Under the pieces are notes generated by a model that was given only the letters and a program-made list of their open reading frames with translations, made no database searches and was not told where the DNA came from. A DNA stretch of 64,000 bases from Streptomyces sp. NBC_00659. GTDB taxonomy: Bacteria; Actinomycetota; Actinomycetes; Streptomycetales; Streptomycetaceae. Numbering within the stretch: position 1 is the stretch's first letter; every line of letters starts with the position of its first letter. Where the stretch lies: assembly GCF_036226925.1 (NCBI RefSeq), contig NZ_CP109031.1, forward strand, positions 2,356,001 to 2,420,000, read 5' to 3'. Positions 47,227-52,652 of the stretch are shown here, in pieces. The translations under genes were made by a program, and so were the position numbers.

Positions 47227-47633
47227 CCGACCGCTCGACGCGGCGCACCGTGATCCTCGCCGCGGGGGCGTCCGCGCTGCTCGCGGGGTGCAGCGAGTAC
47301 GGCGACAAGAACAGCTCCCCGGACGAGTCGCCGAAGGCGTCCAGCGGACAGCAGCTCGCCACGACGAGTGACATCCCGGTCGGCGGAGGCACGATCTTCA
47401 AGGACCAGAAGGTCGTGGTCACCCAGCCGGCGAAGGGCGACTTCAAGGCCTTCTCGGCGATCTGTACGCACGCGGGCTGCACGGTGAACAAGGTCGCGGA
47501 CGGCACCATCGACTGCCCTTGCCACGGAAGCAAGTTCAGTGTCGAGGACGGGGCGGTGAAGGCCGGCCCCGCGCCGCGTCCGCTGCCCGCGGAGAAGATC
47601 ACGGTGGAGGGAAACTCGATCCGCCTGGCGTGA
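47223..47633 (+). CDS. Rieske [2Fe-2S] lipoprotein
   Basis: A 136-residue protein with an Arg-rich n-region and lipobox LLAGC near residue 22, which may be Tat-dependent (STRRTVILAAG). Rieske ligands are complete: CTHAGC (Cys and His) and CPCHGSKF. It should be an extracytoplasmic electron carrier anchored to the membrane. ATG overlaps the DUF6529 stop. Confidence 0.92.
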   Translation: MTDRSTRRTVILAAGASALLAGCSEYGDKNSSPDESPKASSGQQLATTSDIPVGGGTIFKDQKVVVTQPAKGDFKAFSAICTHAGCTVNKVADGTIDCPCHGSKFSVEDGAVKAGPAPRPLPAEKITVEGNSIRLA

Positions 47634-47642
47634 GACGGCCCG

Positions 47643-47648
47643 TAGGCT
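47643..47648 (+). promoter_or_regulatory. Candidate leaderless promoter -10 box (TAGGCT)
   Basis: TAGGCT lies 6 bases before ATG 47655, with no SD, so the first RlaP-like gene is probably leaderless. Confidence 0.5.
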
Positions 47649-47654
47649 CCGGAC

Positions 47655-48479
47655 ATGCGCTCCGAAGCCCCCGTACCCCACGCGGCCCCGACAGGTCCGC
47701 CGGCCCCGGCACAGCCTGCGTCCTCCGCTCTCGCGGGGTCGCCCGTGCCGTCCGGCTCGCCCGCCCCGGCGGTACCGGAGGCCGGGATCCCGCTGGTGCG
47801 GGACCACACGGTCTACTCCTGTGTGATGGGGTCACGCGCCTTCGGGCTGGCCACGGACGGCAGTGACACGGACCTCCGGGGCGTCTTCCTCGCCCCGACC
47901 GCGCTGTTCTGGCGGTTCGAGAAACCTCCGACCCATGTCGAGGGCCCGGCGCCGGAGCAGTTCAGCTGGGAACTGGAGCGGTTCTGCTCGCTCGCGCTGC
48001 GCGCCAACCCGAACATCCTGGAGTGCCTGCACTCCCCGCTCGTCGCGTACGTGGACGACACCGGCCGCGAACTCCTCGACCTGCGCCAGGCTTTCCTCTC
48101 CCGTCAGGCGCACGAGACGTTCACCCGCTACGCCCTGGGCCAGCGCAAGAAGCTGGAGGCCGACGTCCGTACGCACGGCGCCCCGCGCTGGAAGCACGCC
48201 ATGCATCTGCTGCGCCTGCTCATGAGTGCGCGCGATCTGCTGCGCACCGGCGCCCTGACGATCGAGGTCGGGGAGGAGCGCGAGCCGCTGCTGGCGGTGA
48301 AGCGGGGCGAGGTGCCCTGGAGCGAGGTCGAGCGCTGGATGCTCCGGCTGGCCACGGAGGCCGACGAGGCGGCCGTCGGCAGCCCGCTCCCGCCCGAGCC
48401 CGACACCGCGCGCGTCGAGGACTTCCTGATCCGGGTCCGGCGGGCCTCAGTGCTCCGGGAGACCGCCGGAGACCGTTAG
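47655..48479 (+). CDS. RlaP-like nucleotidyltransferase 1
   Basis: A 274-residue protein with a Pro/Ala-rich N-terminal 45 residues, then YSCVMGSRAFGLATDGSDTDLRGVFLAP: the nucleotidyltransferase active site (GSxxxG ... SDxDxRG with catalytic Asp pair) of the RlaP/YcgL-type polymerase-beta superfamily. Helices following include LEADVRTHGAPRWKHAMHLLRLLMSARDLLRTG, typical of the family. RlaP proteins are linked to RNA repair. Its 3-prime end overlaps the convergent second RlaP gene by 33 bases. Function not established for this branch. Confidence 0.85.
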   Translation: MRSEAPVPHAAPTGPPAPAQPASSALAGSPVPSGSPAPAVPEAGIPLVRDHTVYSCVMGSRAFGLATDGSDTDLRGVFLAPTALFWRFEKPPTHVEGPAPEQFSWELERFCSLALRANPNILECLHSPLVAYVDDTGRELLDLRQAFLSRQAHETFTRYALGQRKKLEADVRTHGAPRWKHAMHLLRLLMSARDLLRTGALTIEVGEEREPLLAVKRGEVPWSEVERWMLRLATEADEAAVGSPLPPEPDTARVEDFLIRVRRASVLRETAGDR

Positions 48480-49265
48480 TCCTCCCGGGACCACGTCCTG
48501 GCCTCCCCCGAACCCGTCCAGCCGGACCCTGACCACGAAGGCCTGCAGAGCGTCGTACGCGGAGGCGGCGTCCGGCAGTTCGGAGGCCTCCTGTGCCTCG
48601 TCGAGGAGTACGTGCAGCCGCTCCACGTCCTCCTCCACACGGGCGCGCGGGATGTCCGCGGGCCCGTGTTCCCGTTCCGCCTTCGCGGCGATCAGGTCCG
48701 CGAGATACGCGGGAGAGGCGATCTGCCCGGCCAGCGTGGGCAGATCGGCCTGCACCTCCCCGCTGCGCATGAGGTGGATGCCGGTGAGCAGCACACGGAA
48801 CGTGTAGAGCAGCGGCTTGAGTTCGCCGCTCTTCTCGAAGAGCCGCCACTGTGTGGCCGCGAACCCCCGGTAGTGGTGGGCGTGGTGACGGGTGACGACA
48901 TCGGGGGCGAGCGAGATCAGCTCACGGTGTTCGTCGCTCGTGCGCACGACCAGCGGCGACAGGAGCTGCTCCAGCACATAGCCGTTGCGCCGCAGCATGA
49001 GGCGTACGAACTTGCGCAGGTCGTGGGTGACCAGGTCCATCTCGGTCCCGTCCCGGAACCACATGCGCGACCGGGTCTCCTCCGGCTCGCCCAGCCCGAC
49101 GAGGGCGGCCGTCGGCAGCACATGGACACCGCGCAGGTCGACGTCGGAGTCGCGGGACGGGAAACCGTACAGGTGCGCTCCGGAGACGGTCGCGAAGAGC
49201 ACGGGGTCGGGCTGTTCGCCCACCACGCTCGCGAGGTCGGCGCCGGGACCGAGGACGTCTGTCAT
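48447..49265 (-). CDS. RlaP-like nucleotidyltransferase 2
   Basis: A 272-residue paralogue: LFATVSGAHLYGFPSRDSDVDLRGVHVLP contains the G-S-variant (SGAHLYG) and the catalytic SDVD, followed by DLVTHDLRKFVRLMLRRNGYVLEQLLSPL, a conserved helix pair of the family, and PLLYTFRVLLTGIHLMRSGEVQADL. It starts 3 bases after the ADP-ribosylglycohydrolase gene and so is in the NrtR operon. The divergence from paralogue 1 is large, so they probably act on different substrates. Confidence 0.88.
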   Translation of the reverse strand: MTDVLGPGADLASVVGEQPDPVLFATVSGAHLYGFPSRDSDVDLRGVHVLPTAALVGLGEPEETRSRMWFRDGTEMDLVTHDLRKFVRLMLRRNGYVLEQLLSPLVVRTSDEHRELISLAPDVVTRHHAHHYRGFAATQWRLFEKSGELKPLLYTFRVLLTGIHLMRSGEVQADLPTLAGQIASPAYLADLIAAKAEREHGPADIPRARVEEDVERLHVLLDEAQEASELPDAASAYDALQAFVVRVRLDGFGGGQDVVPGGLTVSGGLPEH

Positions 49266-49268
49266 GGC

Positions 49269-50291
49269 TCAAGCATCCCAGAGCGCTCCCAGCGACATGA
49301 GGTCGCTCTGGTACTCGACGCGGTCGGCCCAGTCGGTCGGCCAGGCCTCGGAGCCGTGGTGGGCGCCCGCGAACGCCCCGGTCAGGCAGGCGATGGAGTC
49401 GGAGTCGCCCGAGGTGCAGGCGGCCCGGCGCAGCGCGGTGACGGGTTCGTCGACGAACATCAGGAAGCACAGCAGGCCGGTGGCGAACGCCTCCTCGGCG
49501 ATCCAGCCCTCACCGGTGGCCAGGCAGGGGTCGTCCTCGGGCGACGCGGTCCGCACGGCCTGGCGGAGGTTGTCCAGGACGGCGATGCACTCGTCCCAGC
49601 CGCGGGAGATGTACGCCTCGGGTGTGGCGTCGTGGCAGAAGGTCCACAGGTCGCCGAGCCAGCGCGAGTGGTAGCGGTGCCGGTTCTCGTGCGCGTACGC
49701 GAGCAGCAATCCGATCAGTTCCGCGGGCCGGGCGCCCTGGGAGAGCAGCCGGACGGTGTGCGCGGTGAGGTCCGAGGCGGCGAGCGCGGTGGGGTGGCCG
49801 TGGGTGAGCGCGGCCTGGAGCTGGGCGGCGCCGGCGCGCTGTTCGTCGCTGAGTCCGCGGGCGAGCCCGACGGGCGCCACGCGCATGTTGGCGCCGCAGC
49901 CCTTGGAACCGGTCTGGCTGGCCTCCTGCCAGCGGCGGTTCTCGTCCTTGAGGAGGTCGCAGGCGACCAGGCAGGTCCGGCCGGGGGCCCGGTTGTTCTC
50001 GGGCGACTGGTACCAGTCCACGAACTCCTCGCGGACCGGCCGTTCCATCCGCAGCGGGCCCAGCAGTCCGCGGTCCATGGCGGTGCGCAGTCCGTTGGCG
50101 AGCGCCAGGGTCATCTGGGTGTCGTCGGTGACGATCGCGGGCCTGGGCAGCGCCATCTGCCGCCAGGGGCCGAACTTCTCGAGGATGGCGGGCACGGTGT
50201 TGAACTCGGTGGGGAACCCGAGCGCGTCTCCGAGGGCCAGGCCGATGAGGGAACCGGTGGCTGCGCGTTTGGTCAGGGTCGTGCTGGTCAT
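49269..50291 (-). CDS. ADP-ribosylglycohydrolase (DraG/ARH family)
   Basis: A 340-residue protein with the metal-site motifs of the family: GLALGDALGFPTEF near residue 15, IVTDDTQMTLALA near 53 (Asp pair), and SGDSDSIACLTGAFAGAHHG near 300. It should hydrolyse ADP-ribose from modified proteins, nucleic acids or small molecules with Mg ions. AAGGA lies upstream of ATG 50291. It is 11 bases after the NrtR gene and 3 before the RlaP gene, a tight operon; its product ADP-ribose is a known NrtR ligand. Confidence 0.92.
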   Translation of the reverse strand: MTSTTLTKRAATGSLIGLALGDALGFPTEFNTVPAILEKFGPWRQMALPRPAIVTDDTQMTLALANGLRTAMDRGLLGPLRMERPVREEFVDWYQSPENNRAPGRTCLVACDLLKDENRRWQEASQTGSKGCGANMRVAPVGLARGLSDEQRAGAAQLQAALTHGHPTALAASDLTAHTVRLLSQGARPAELIGLLLAYAHENRHRYHSRWLGDLWTFCHDATPEAYISRGWDECIAVLDNLRQAVRTASPEDDPCLATGEGWIAEEAFATGLLCFLMFVDEPVTALRRAACTSGDSDSIACLTGAFAGAHHGSEAWPTDWADRVEYQSDLMSLGALWDA

Positions 50292-50302
50292 CGGGGCCGT
50301 CC

Positions 50303-51046
50303 TTACGAGGTGGGACGCAGCAGTGGTGGGTGCAGAACCTTGGCGCCGCCCGCGCGGTAGAGGGCGGCGGGTTTGCCGCGGCCGCCGGTGAGGCGTGCGG
50401 CACCGGGGACCTGCTCGACGAACCCCGGCGTGGCGAGGACCTTGCGCCGGAAGTTGGGCCGGTCGAGCGTGGTGCCCCACACCGTCTCGTAGACGTGCTG
50501 AAGCTCCCCGAGGGTGAACTCGGGCGGGCAGAAGGACGTGGCGAGGCAGGAGTACTCCAGCTTGGCGCCCACGCGTTCATGGGCGTCGGCCAGGATCCGG
50601 TCGTGGTCGAAGGCGAGCGGGCCGAGCGCGTCGAACGGCAGCCACCGGGCCTGCGCCGCGTCGCCGCCGCCGTGCGGTTCGGGCGGGTCGGGCAGCAGTG
50701 CGGCGAACGCGACGGAGACGACCCGCATACGGGGGTCGCGGTCGGGTTCGCTGTAGGTGCGCAGCTGCTCCAGGTGGAGTCCCGAGAGGTCCGACAGGCC
50801 GGTCTCCTCGGCGAGTTCACGCCGTGCGGCCGTCTCGGCGGACTCGCGGGGCAGCACGAAGCCGCCGGGCAGGGCCCAGCGGCCGGCGTACGGTTCCCGG
50901 CCCCGCTCGATCAGCAGGACCTGGAGTGCGCCCGCGCGTACGGTCAGGACGGCCAGGTCGACGGTGACGGCGAAGGGCTCGAAGGCGTACTTGTCATAGC
51001 CCTCGGGTGCCTCACCCCCCGGCGCGCGGTCTTCCCCTGTCGCCAC
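50303..51046 (-). CDS. nrtR: NrtR-type Nudix regulator (Nudix domain plus winged helix)
   Basis: A 247-residue protein with an N-terminal Nudix fold (box GFVLPRE...RRELAEETGL, complete) at about residues 60-85 and a C-terminal winged helix (FTLGELQHVYETVWGTTLDRPNFRRKV) at about 175-220. NrtR repressors bind DNA and respond to ADP-ribose in NAD metabolism; unusually, the catalytic box here is intact, so it may also hydrolyse. A double operator lies 18-49 bases upstream, so self-regulation is likely. First gene of the operon with draG-like and RlaP genes. Confidence 0.88.
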   Translation of the reverse strand: MATGEDRAPGGEAPEGYDKYAFEPFAVTVDLAVLTVRAGALQVLLIERGREPYAGRWALPGGFVLPRESAETAARRELAEETGLSDLSGLHLEQLRTYSEPDRDPRMRVVSVAFAALLPDPPEPHGGGDAAQARWLPFDALGPLAFDHDRILADAHERVGAKLEYSCLATSFCPPEFTLGELQHVYETVWGTTLDRPNFRRKVLATPGFVEQVPGAARLTGGRGKPAALYRAGGAKVLHPPLLRPTS

Positions 51047-51063
51047 CCTCGCGCCCCCTTTTT

Positions 51064-51080
51064 ATGGTCACCTTGACCAT
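51064..51080. promoter_or_regulatory. NrtR operator candidate 1 (perfect palindrome)
   Basis: ATGGTCA-CCT-TGACCAT, a perfect 7+3+7 inverted repeat upstream of nrtR. Confidence 0.75.
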
Positions 51081-51095
51081 GGTCATTACGACTAT
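51079..51095. promoter_or_regulatory. NrtR operator candidate 2 (imperfect palindrome)
   Basis: ATGGTCA-TTA-CGACTAT overlaps site 1 by two bases; centres are 15 bp apart. Five of seven half-site bases match. Confidence 0.65.
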
Positions 51096-51116
51096 AAAGG
51101 GAGCGGGGGGTGTCAA
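51091..51116 (-). promoter_or_regulatory. Probable nrtR promoter (TTGACA ... TATAGT)
   Basis: On the minus strand a perfect -35 TTGACA (51116-51111) is followed 14 bases later by TATAGT (51096-51091). The spacing is short for a sigma-70 promoter, so the exact -10 is unsure, but it is covered by or next to the operators. Confidence 0.45.
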
Positions 51117-51246
51117 CAAGGCTTTCGGCCGGTGCAGTTGTGACTCCCGGAGCCGGCGCGGGAGCCACGGCCTCCGTTCCGGGCCGGGAGCGCGGACGGT
51201 TTGCTCCGTTCACTGGTACAGACCGGCGGGGAACCGGGAAACGAAT

Positions 51247-51279
51247 CGGCCGGCCCCGGAGAAGTTCCGGGACCGGCCG
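51247..51279. terminator. Terminator hairpin after segregation operon
   Basis: A 14-bp stem with one mismatch (51247-51260 with 51266-51279), about 70 bases past the pseudouridine synthase stop on the minus strand. Confidence 0.65.
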
Positions 51280-51347
51280 TGTCACGCGCGGGATGTCCGC
51301 GGGCCGCGGGAGCCGTGGGGCTCCCGGGCCTCAGGGGGCTTCCGGGG

Positions 51348-52652
51348 TCAGAGACCGACCTCGGCCATGAGCATGCCGACCTCGGTGTTCGACAGGCGGC
51401 GCAGCCAGCCCGACTTCTGGTCGCCCAGGGTGATCGGGCCGAAGGCGACGCGCACCAGCTTGTCGACCGGGAAACCGGCCTCGGCGAGCATGCGGCGCAC
51501 GATGTGCTTGCGGCCCTCGTGCAGGGTCACCTCGACGAGGTAGTTCTTGCCGGTCTGCTCGACGACACGGAAGTGGTCCGCCTTGGCGTACCCGTCCTCC
51601 AGCTGGATGCCGTCCTTGAGCCGCTTGCCCAGGTCGCGCGGGATCGGGCCCACGATGTGCGCGAGGTAGACCTTCTTCACGCCGTACTTGGGGTGGGTCA
51701 GGCGGTGCGCCAGCTCGCCGTGGTTGGTGAGCAGGATGACACCCTCGGTCTCGGTGTCGAGCCGGCCCACGTGGAAGAGCCGCGTCTCGCGGTTCGTCAC
51801 GTAGTCGCCGAGGCACTGGCGGCCCTCGTTGTCCTCCATCGTGGAGACGACACCGGCCGGCTTGTTCAGCGAGAAGAACTGGTACGACTGCGTCGCGACC
51901 GTCAGGCCGTCGACCTTGATCTCGTCCTTCTCCGTGTCGACGCGGAGCCCCTGCTCCATGACGATCTCGCCGTTGACCTCGACCCTGGCCTGGTCGACCA
52001 GCTCCTCGCAGGCACGCCGGGAGCCGTAGCCCGCTCGCGCGAGGATCTTCTGGAGGCGCTCGCCCTCCTCCTCGGCGCCCGGGAACGTCTTGGGCAGCTT
52101 GATGTCCGGCTTGCCCGCGTACCGGTCCCGGTTGCGCTCCTCGGTCCGCGTCTCGTACTCACGGGAGCGCGCGGGCTCGGTGCGGCCGCCGCGCTGCTGG
52201 CCCTGCTTGGGGCCGCCCTTGGCGCCACCGCGCGCGGAGGCTCCGCGACCGGACTTCGGGCCTTCGTGCGTGCCGCCGGGGCCTACGTCGTAGCGACGCT
52301 CCTCGGGACGGGGCTTGCTGGGACGCTTCGGCTGGTCGTCGCGCCCCTGCGCCGAGCTCCTCGGCTGGAAGCCGCTCCCGCCGGTTCCCCGCGAGCCGCT
52401 CCCGCCGCTGCCGCGCGAGCCGCCGCCGCTCCCGCCGCGCGAGCCACTGCCACCGCCGGCCCCACGCGAGCCACCGCCGCCACCGCCGGCCCCACGGGAG
52501 CCACCGCCGCCACCGCCGGCCCCACGGGAGCCACCGCCACCGCCGCCGGCCCCACGGGAGCCACCGCCACCGCCGCTCCCGCCGGTTCCCCGCGGGTTGC
52601 CGCGCCCGCTGTTCCTGCCACTGCCGCCACTGCCGCTGCCACTGCTTCGCAT
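51348..52652 (-). CDS. RsuA/RluB-family 23S/16S rRNA pseudouridine synthase with RG-rich extension
   Basis: A 434-residue enzyme. About 185 N-terminal residues are Gly/Ser/Arg-rich with 10-residue repeats (GGGGGGSRGA), then basic Lys/Arg/Gln sequence. An S4 domain begins near RLQKILARAGYGSRRACEEL and the catalytic GRLDTETEGVILLTNHG (Asp nucleophile) follows. It isomerises a uridine in rRNA; the extension may help RNA binding. ATG 52652 overlaps the scpB stop (TGATG). This gene closes the segregation operon. Confidence 0.92.
   Translation of the reverse strand: MRSSGSGSGGSGRNSGRGNPRGTGGSGGGGGSRGAGGGGGGSRGAGGGGGGSRGAGGGGGGSRGAGGGSGSRGGSGGGSRGSGGSGSRGTGGSGFQPRSSAQGRDDQPKRPSKPRPEERRYDVGPGGTHEGPKSGRGASARGGAKGGPKQGQQRGGRTEPARSREYETRTEERNRDRYAGKPDIKLPKTFPGAEEEGERLQKILARAGYGSRRACEELVDQARVEVNGEIVMEQGLRVDTEKDEIKVDGLTVATQSYQFFSLNKPAGVVSTMEDNEGRQCLGDYVTNRETRLFHVGRLDTETEGVILLTNHGELAHRLTHPKYGVKKVYLAHIVGPIPRDLGKRLKDGIQLEDGYAKADHFRVVEQTGKNYLVEVTLHEGRKHIVRRMLAEAGFPVDKLVRVAFGPITLGDQKSGWLRRLSNTEVGMLMAEVGL
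52444..52590. repeat. 30-bp tandem repeats coding GGGGGGSRGA units
   Basis: Near-identical 30-bp units start at 52471, 52501 and 52531, with diverged or shorter units on each side. Being multiples of three, they keep the reading frame. Confidence 0.85.

Follow-up and report, generated by a model that had tools for sequence, protein, structure and literature searches.

We examined a locus in a 64,000-nucleotide stretch of the chromosome of Streptomyces sp. NBC_00659 (positions 2,356,001-2,420,000, the whole of this stretch being called the window below) in which an operon composed of nrtR, a gene for an ADP-ribosylglycohydrolase (ARH) and rlaPB, a gene for an RlaP-family nucleotidyltransferase, converges with a second RlaP gene, rlaPA. 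Comparison of genomes places this nucleotidyltransferase of RNA-repair type together with an NrtR-type regulator (NrtR-1) and the glycohydrolase, in a regulon that takes in the salvage of nicotinamide adenine dinucleotide (NAD), in many Streptomyces. The reading that we favour, to which we assign a probability of about 0.5, is that a repressor relieved by ADP-ribose would couple the recovery of NAD and the removal of ADP-ribose to the repair of RNA.

The first line of evidence is the conservation of the operon. Among 80 named loci matching RlaPB, the order NrtR, ARH and RlaPB facing RlaPA was found in all 59 loci holding the four genes, and because the strands were identical in the same 59 of 59 the arrangement is not due to chance. 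The distances from gene to gene are those of translationally coupled genes: in the intact frames of related loci the gap between NrtR and ARH has a median of -4 bases (109/110 at 50 bases or fewer, the few very negative values being misplaced starts) and that between ARH and RlaPB a median of +3 (82/83 at 27 bases or fewer), and the 3' ends of RlaPA and RlaPB overlap in 54 of 68 related loci. The locus lies at one chromosomal place, with tyrA on one side and rluB-scpB-scpA on the other, and the RlaP profile PF10127 is present in 85 of 101 genomes of the genus and in 25 of 396 genomes taken across the phylum, 10 of these 25 being of the same genus. In 81 loci of relatives, where presence means a tblastn match with fragments counted, NrtR was found in 67, each time with ARH, and ARH without NrtR in nine; RlaPA was found in 72 and RlaPB in 45, only once without RlaPA. 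Eight of the 81 keep NrtR and ARH in the absence of RlaP (six NrtR-ARH and two PnuC-NadR-NrtR-ARH), and in 36 NrtR is preceded by matches to PnuC and/or NadR (domains checked in locus L109 only). Since loci were collected through matches to RlaP or NrtR-1, these tallies over-represent loci having these genes, and for the RlaPB relatives among genome contigs the best 80 of 502 were used. Five loci with an identical ARH gene in both genome sets were dropped from the joint operator count given below and retained in the counts of gene order, tree, spacing and motifs and in a first count of type-2 sites; some genomes are counted twice in the spacing and motif counts.

All four proteins of the locus pass the Pfam cut-offs in a profile search (Table 1), and NrtR-1 has the fusion of a Nudix domain to the NrtR winged helix that is expected of its family. 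A preliminary description of this DNA had named the four families, had given their coordinates with spacers of 11 and 3 bases in nrtR-ARH-rlaPB and a convergent overlap of 33 bases, and had held that its reading would fall if they were not neighbours in related genomes; the profiles agree with the names, the open reading frames (ORFs) confirm the positions, and the shared order in the 59 complete loci shows that they are neighbours there. Structures related to NrtR-1 in the PDB are 5bs6, 3gz5 and 3gz6, and those related to ARH are DraG (2woe) and ARH3. The likeness is one of family, as NrtR-1 scores 127 bits in NCBIfam against the 400 of equivalog NF050029, and ARH scores 73.6 bits against the equivalog for DraG proper (cut-off 337) and 70.3 bits against that for Tri1 proper (cut-off 490). 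Catalytic motifs are preserved in the intact frames of related loci (broken frames and matches below 55% of the query being excluded): the Pol-beta motif G[SA]x8-12DxD in 88/88 RlaPB and 108/108 RlaPA, DDT and GDSDS in 145/145 ARH, and a canonical Nudix box in 112/113 NrtR. The longest open frame of ARH extends to 50480, and the start of rlaPA is uncertain, given that residues 16-36 are modelled with a predicted local distance difference test (pLDDT) score under 50 and that orthologues differ in length. No gene other than ARH lies between nrtR and rlaPB in the ORF list, and no further PF10127 match was found elsewhere in the 9.66-Mb genome, which is one contig. Nine ADP-ribosylglycohydrolase matches occur in this genome, four of them within 5 kb at positions 2771887-2776688.

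The second line of evidence is an operator. The palindromic motif ATRGTCRnnnYGACYAT lies upstream of nrtR, or of pnuC where pnuC and nadR lead the operon, and in the window its only perfect copies are the two overlapping sites before nrtR. Allowing at most one mismatch, it was found in 52 of 55 NrtR loci and in none of 14 NrtR-less loci of the first set. When both sets were joined, 121 of 124 loci with NrtR and 2 of 20 without it carried the site, gene presence being again a tblastn match with fragments counted; the background was 3 matches over 655 kb of DNA flanking the loci. Loci whose fetched stretch held no rluB (for example L114, L122, L123 and L126) were left out of these operator counts. 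The motif was defined on the same data and related species are not independent, so that these figures describe an association and are no independent test. Five exact matches to a looser form of the motif occur in this genome, and three of them fit the full form: two at the nrtR promoter and one before a pnuC-nadR-nrtR' operon at 9.175 Mb. The latter operon (positions 9172899-9175357) has a perfect NrtR-1 operator upstream and encodes an NrtR copy 80% identical to that of the window; many species have pnuC-nadR and nrtR-ARH-rlaPB in a single operon, and here the two are separate. As the full motif occurs only at these two operons, the predicted regulon joins the salvage of nicotinamide riboside to de-ADP-ribosylation. 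Regulation of the operon by NrtR-1 is a prediction well supported by comparison, and control of NAD-metabolism genes by NrtR is likewise predicted from the operator that precedes pnuC-nadR here and in relatives. The predicted operator would cover the -10 region of the nrtR promoter; a consensus promoter scan of 47550-51400 found no sigma-70-type site, and the same interval holds two terminator-like sites against 0.7 expected from shuffled sequences.

Table 1. Features of the nrtR-ARH-rlaPB/rlaPA locus, in positions of the window.
Feature	Position	Strand	Description	Basis
rlaPA	47655-48479	+	RlaP-family Pol-beta-type nucleotidyltransferase, convergent, outside the NrtR operon	PF10127, 108 bits
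rlaPB	48447-49265	-	Second RlaP-family nucleotidyltransferase, terminal gene of the nrtR operon	PF10127, 179 bits
rlaPA/rlaPB 3' overlap	48447-48479		33 bases	ORF coordinates
ARH	49269-50291	-	DraG/ARH-type ADP-ribosylglycohydrolase	ADP_ribosyl_GH PF03747, 218 bits
nrtR (NrtR-1)	50303-51046	-	Presumed autorepressor	NUDIX PF00293, 82 bits; NrtR_WHD PF21906, 59 bits
Double NrtR-1 operator (predicted)	51064-51080 and 51079-51095		In the interval from rluB to nrtR	
Possible -35 hexamer TTGACA	51111-51116	-		Read by eye
Terminator-like hairpin	51247-51279	-	After rluB, separates rluB from the nrtR operon	

The loci that lack NrtR-1 add to this picture. Of the 101 genomes, 98 contain one or more NrtR matches (E 1e-40), and alongside the group of this locus another group, NrtR-2, with which it shares about 61-65% identity, is present in most genomes among the matches listed, with a Nudix box that is also canonical in the eight proteins read. 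The NrtR-2 promoters share TTATCGTCAGGnnGACGACTATGAT in all eight loci read, and this block differs by two mismatches from a second palindrome (the type-2 form, ATYGTCRnnnYGACRAT) and by four from the NrtR-1 form. The type-2 form, with at most one mismatch, is carried by 15 of the 20 ARH loci without NrtR-1, mostly just before ARH, the NrtR-1 site being retained in two of the 20, and none of the 124 NrtR-1 loci fits the type-2 form better than its own. The simplest reading would be that control of the ARH operon moves to NrtR-2 once NrtR-1 is lost, a predicted hand-over from one regulator to the other. Two NrtR-2-like palindromes also lie at positions 7065299-7065350 of this genome, with an SPFH-like gene on one side and an arginine deiminase gene on the other, about 2.4 kb from genes for the RNA-repair proteins Hen1 and Pnkp; the type-2 rule finds no such site in the relatives read, and at a limit of one mismatch no type-2 site was found in the 10 Hen1-Pnkp regions read, that of this genome included.

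The third line of evidence concerns the RlaP pair itself. Among plasmid records, RlaPB relatives at 51-53% turned up in Deinococcus (four records matched). In the three read (L324-L326) Hen1 comes first, the RlaPA counterpart second and the RlaPB counterpart third, followed by Pnkp in two, once with an extra gene between; the third has only a short Pnkp-like stretch (54% match). Each of our two proteins resembles its own Deinococcus counterpart (RlaPA 51%, RlaPB 52%) far more than the other one (27-29% crosswise), and we therefore rejected a recent tandem duplication as the origin of the pair; RlaPA and RlaPB are, on this comparison, two distinct groups forming a pair. The link of RlaP to RNA repair, which the preliminary description had drawn from comparative genomics, thus finds support in the relatives of the pair that sit in Hen1 RNA-repair cassettes. 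Neither ARH nor NrtR was detected within 7 kb of the Deinococcus pairs, whose records are incompletely annotated. Hen1-Pnkp also stands beside an RlaP in locus L092, and no RNA-repair family was seen beside 15 RlaP loci away from the main place (other actinobacteria and a third Streptomyces type) among the 25 listed of 53 families, in a scan of 40 of 61 proteins. The present genome encodes Hen1, Pnkp, RtcB and KptA outside the window, and the RlaP pair is unlinked to Hen1-Pnkp in it, the only Pnkp match lying at 7.06 Mb with Hen1 adjoining and the window at 2.36-2.42 Mb.

Other arrangements of RlaP genes were met in Streptomyces. A convergent RlaPB/RlaPA pair stands in other surroundings in Streptomyces sp. 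CB01373 (L281, 5980-7398), where the 12.7 kb fetched gave no match to ARH or NrtR; RlaPA and RlaPB occur together on a short contig, possibly an assembly artefact, in genome G041 (L107); a third, distant RlaP type (33-37% to RlaPA) is found in some Streptomyces (L096-L098, L176-L181), where no ARH or NrtR was found nearby. In a further genome, G035, a tandem RlaPA-RlaPB is divergent from an ARH of another subfamily (L119, 2945-5510), which is a separate ARH-RlaP arrangement.

Placing these results into a mechanism, NrtR-1 bound at the ATRGTCRnnnYGACYAT sites of its promoters would repress nrtR-ARH-rlaPB and pnuC-nadR. Consumption of NAD, or a build-up of ADP-ribosylated molecules, would yield free ADP-ribose, partly released by ARH, and its binding to the Nudix domain of NrtR-1 would lift repression. 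PnuC and NadR could then import nicotinamide riboside and remake NAD, while ARH would strip ADP-ribose from its targets and the output of RlaPB would rise; RlaPB and its partner RlaPA would restore the nucleotides lost at broken RNA ends, which Hen1-Pnkp, and perhaps RtcB, both encoded elsewhere, would afterwards seal. ARH enzymes free ADP-ribose. Since ADP-ribose relieves NrtR from DNA in Mycobacterium smegmatis (PMC6800001) and on pnuC in Streptococcus sobrinus (PMC12735969), an induction loop may result that raises nicotinamide-riboside salvage, ARH and RlaPB. RlaPA lies beyond the reach of the operator, and of the two proteins RlaPB may therefore be the one that is inducible and limiting. 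The canonical Nudix box of NrtR-1 suggests that this protein may hydrolyse ADP-ribose as well and thereby reset itself. Comparison of sequences supports the operon, the operator, the regulon, the two RlaP groups and the relatives in repair cassettes; ADP-ribose as the ligand of NrtR-1, repression, the substrate of ARH, the reaction of RlaP, the partnership with Hen1-Pnkp and the self-reset are what we infer. A fuller version of the scheme, in which NrtR-1 would act as a self-resetting switch that both senses and destroys ADP-ribose, and so joins NAD re-synthesis, ARH and the restoration of RNA by RlaPA-RlaPB and Hen1-Pnkp, seems to us doubtful; the switch would be induced by an attack in which NAD is consumed and RNA cut, or by the healing of RNA ends through ADP-ribose derivatives made by KptA.

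Against this coupling of NAD recovery to RNA repair stand several results, most of which concern how tightly RlaP goes with NrtR and ARH. On the tree of 152 loci RlaPB changes state 30 times, RlaPA 13, NrtR 8 and ARH 5. With a turnover so much higher than that of ARH, the RlaP genes have the look of an accessory to a core of NrtR and ARH. Comparisons of independent pairs gave no association between the presence of RlaPB and NrtR (2.2 same, 1.3 opposite of 21), RlaPA and NrtR (0.5 same, 1.0 opposite of 9) or RlaPB and ARH (0.4 same, 0.2 opposite of 15), and RlaPB and RlaPA leaned towards occurring together (4.5 same, 0.4 opposite of 21), though not significantly. RlaPB is absent from many loci that retain NrtR and ARH, and is split into fragments in several genomes. 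An ARH profile matched only 2 of 52 other RlaP loci (viral, other actinobacterial and displaced Streptomyces), namely L119 and, at a distance of 4.5 kb, L088, and on this count a linkage of ARH to RlaP as a general rule was rejected; no ARH was found near the 25 viral RlaP loci. No NrtR operator was found near rlaPA. The switch of operator, too, hangs on few events: loss of the NrtR-1 site follows loss of NrtR in about 4.8 of 6 independent pairs and gain of the type-2 site in 2.7 of 6 (about four changes on the tree), none opposite and neither significant, so that the tree tests of operator switching lean in the expected direction with too few events. Pointing the other way, RlaPA or RlaPB is present in 77 of the 94 Streptomyces genomes that have Pnkp and in 1 of the 7 that lack it (Fisher P = 0.0005, uncorrected for kinship; P = 0.0016 if the fragmentary genome G100 is counted as Pnkp-negative), a co-occurrence confounded by loss of the whole locus. 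In this count the genomes without RlaPA or RlaPB were listed by hand (16 without PF10127, 7 with the distant third type only), G022 with its RlaPA remnants being taken as lacking the pair and the genomes with displaced RlaP (G018, G035, G047 and G058) as having it.

These observations bear on the view that NrtR-1, ARH and pnuC-nadR form an ADP-ribose-responsive regulon for NAD balance, in which the RlaP pair merely shares a stable spot and does an unrelated job. This view would account for the eight loci that keep NrtR and ARH without RlaP, for a locus fixed between housekeeping neighbours (tyrA and rluB-scpB-scpA), and for RlaP pairs that occur without ARH (L281 and Deinococcus). It fits poorly with rlaPB beginning about +3 bases after ARH in nearly all loci having both, and with L119, where in another Streptomyces genome RlaPA-RlaPB diverges from a different ARH. 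We hold it to be unlikely, and retain it because of the state changes of RlaP, the lack of pairwise association, the split RlaPB and the two ARH matches in 52 loci. The preliminary description had proposed a module gated by NAD or ADP-ribose and had allowed for the chance that the operator serves NAD-biosynthesis genes alone. This proposal is supported in part: the operon is conserved, comparison finds an operator that accompanies NrtR, and the ARH-rlaPB operon carries the operator, so that the latter is not restricted to NAD biosynthesis. The proposal did not stand for rlaPA, which has no such operator nearby, and it had missed the salvage of nicotinamide riboside by pnuC-nadR.

The AlphaFold (AF2) model of RlaPA has a pLDDT of 87.8, and the solved structures closest to it in fold are aminoglycoside nucleotidyltransferases and HalB, both weak matches with a template modelling (TM) score of about 0.37, followed further down the list by toxin-antitoxin chains with MNT. 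These matches agree with a nucleotidyltransferase core in the modelled protein and name no substrate. For RlaPB the model is poor (pLDDT 68, the catalytic half being badly modelled), a structure search with it gave no match at E 0.001, and a sequence search of the PDB gave nothing meaningful. MNT antitoxins nucleotidylate a target, and HalB makes an oligonucleotide signal. RlaPA and RlaPB could accordingly nucleotidylate a protein or synthesise an oligonucleotide signal under the control of ADP-ribose, as the closest solved folds of RlaPA would allow; with a TM of only about 0.37, and with Deinococcus counterparts grouped with Hen1 in all three records and with Pnkp in two of them, we consider this very improbable.

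Relatives of RlaPA also occur in 137 of 50,697 phage records, where their neighbours, among 56 of 95 proteins scanned and 25 of 35 families listed, include three Thg1, three T4-type RNA ligases, two PNKP phosphatase domains, two PolyA_pol heads, one RtcB and one RNA_ligase, a setting that favours the RNA-repair reading of the pair. Phage-borne relatives, together with the ADP-ribosylglycohydrolase (ARG) operons with Nudix or WYL repressors that section 3.8 of PMC9503650 describes in actinobacteria, would suit a system of recovery from phage, in which ADP-ribosylation of host molecules by phages or rival toxins is reversed and RlaP mends the RNA cut in the attack. The fixed chromosomal position of the locus amid housekeeping genes argues otherwise, as does PADLOC, whose only match was a weak one (24.6 bits) that concerned the Nudix portion of NrtR. 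Furthermore, ARH being the only gene between nrtR and rlaPB, this operon lacks the phosphatases and chaperones described as partners in that part of PMC9503650. A defensive role of this kind appears to us quite unlikely.

Returning to the reading in which an ADP-ribose-relieved NrtR-1 joins NAD recovery to RNA repair, its components are each known or predicted already: pnuC-nadR under the control of NrtR, Nudix repressors in ARG operons, and the association of RlaP with RNA ligases. In the open-licence PMC papers searched we did not find NrtR, ARH and RlaP described together, nor the operator, the regulator hand-over or the matched RlaPA and RlaPB groups. Their combination suggests, as far as comparison of sequences allows, that the loss of NAD may be tied to the repair of cut RNA, and the exact operator, the apparent swap of NrtR-1 for NrtR-2 and the matched pair of enzymes make this link directly testable. 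A connection between NAD and RNA repair has precedents in KptA and, by prediction, in phage sirtuins (section 3.7.3 of PMC9503650).

NrtR-1 resembles the NrtR proteins of M. smegmatis (PMC6800001) and S. sobrinus (PMC12735969) in its Nudix domain and winged helix and in an operator at its own or its target's promoter, and the S. sobrinus protein also in the control of pnuC-nadR. It differs from them in its canonical Nudix box, reported there as degraded and inactive; in its operator, ATRGTCRnnnYGACYAT here and GTTTTCGA-N7-TCGAAAAC as reported for mycobacteria; and in a predicted regulon that adds ARH and RlaPB. With the ARG-centred systems of section 3.8 of PMC9503650, the main text of which does not name RlaP, it shares an ADP-ribosylglycohydrolase and an NrtR-like Nudix regulator in actinobacteria, the phosphatase or chaperone gene being absent from the operon and nicotinamide-riboside salvage and RlaP being added. 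The RlaP of jumbo phages (PMC7824862) belongs to the same family, with a predicted restoration of nucleotides before ligation, and is unlike the present pair in associating with RNA ligases. The closest likeness in the pair itself is with the Hen1 cassettes of Deinococcus, where counterparts of the same two RlaP groups stand side by side, whereas in Streptomyces the two genes converge, lie apart from Hen1-Pnkp, and rlaPB has its place in the NrtR operon.

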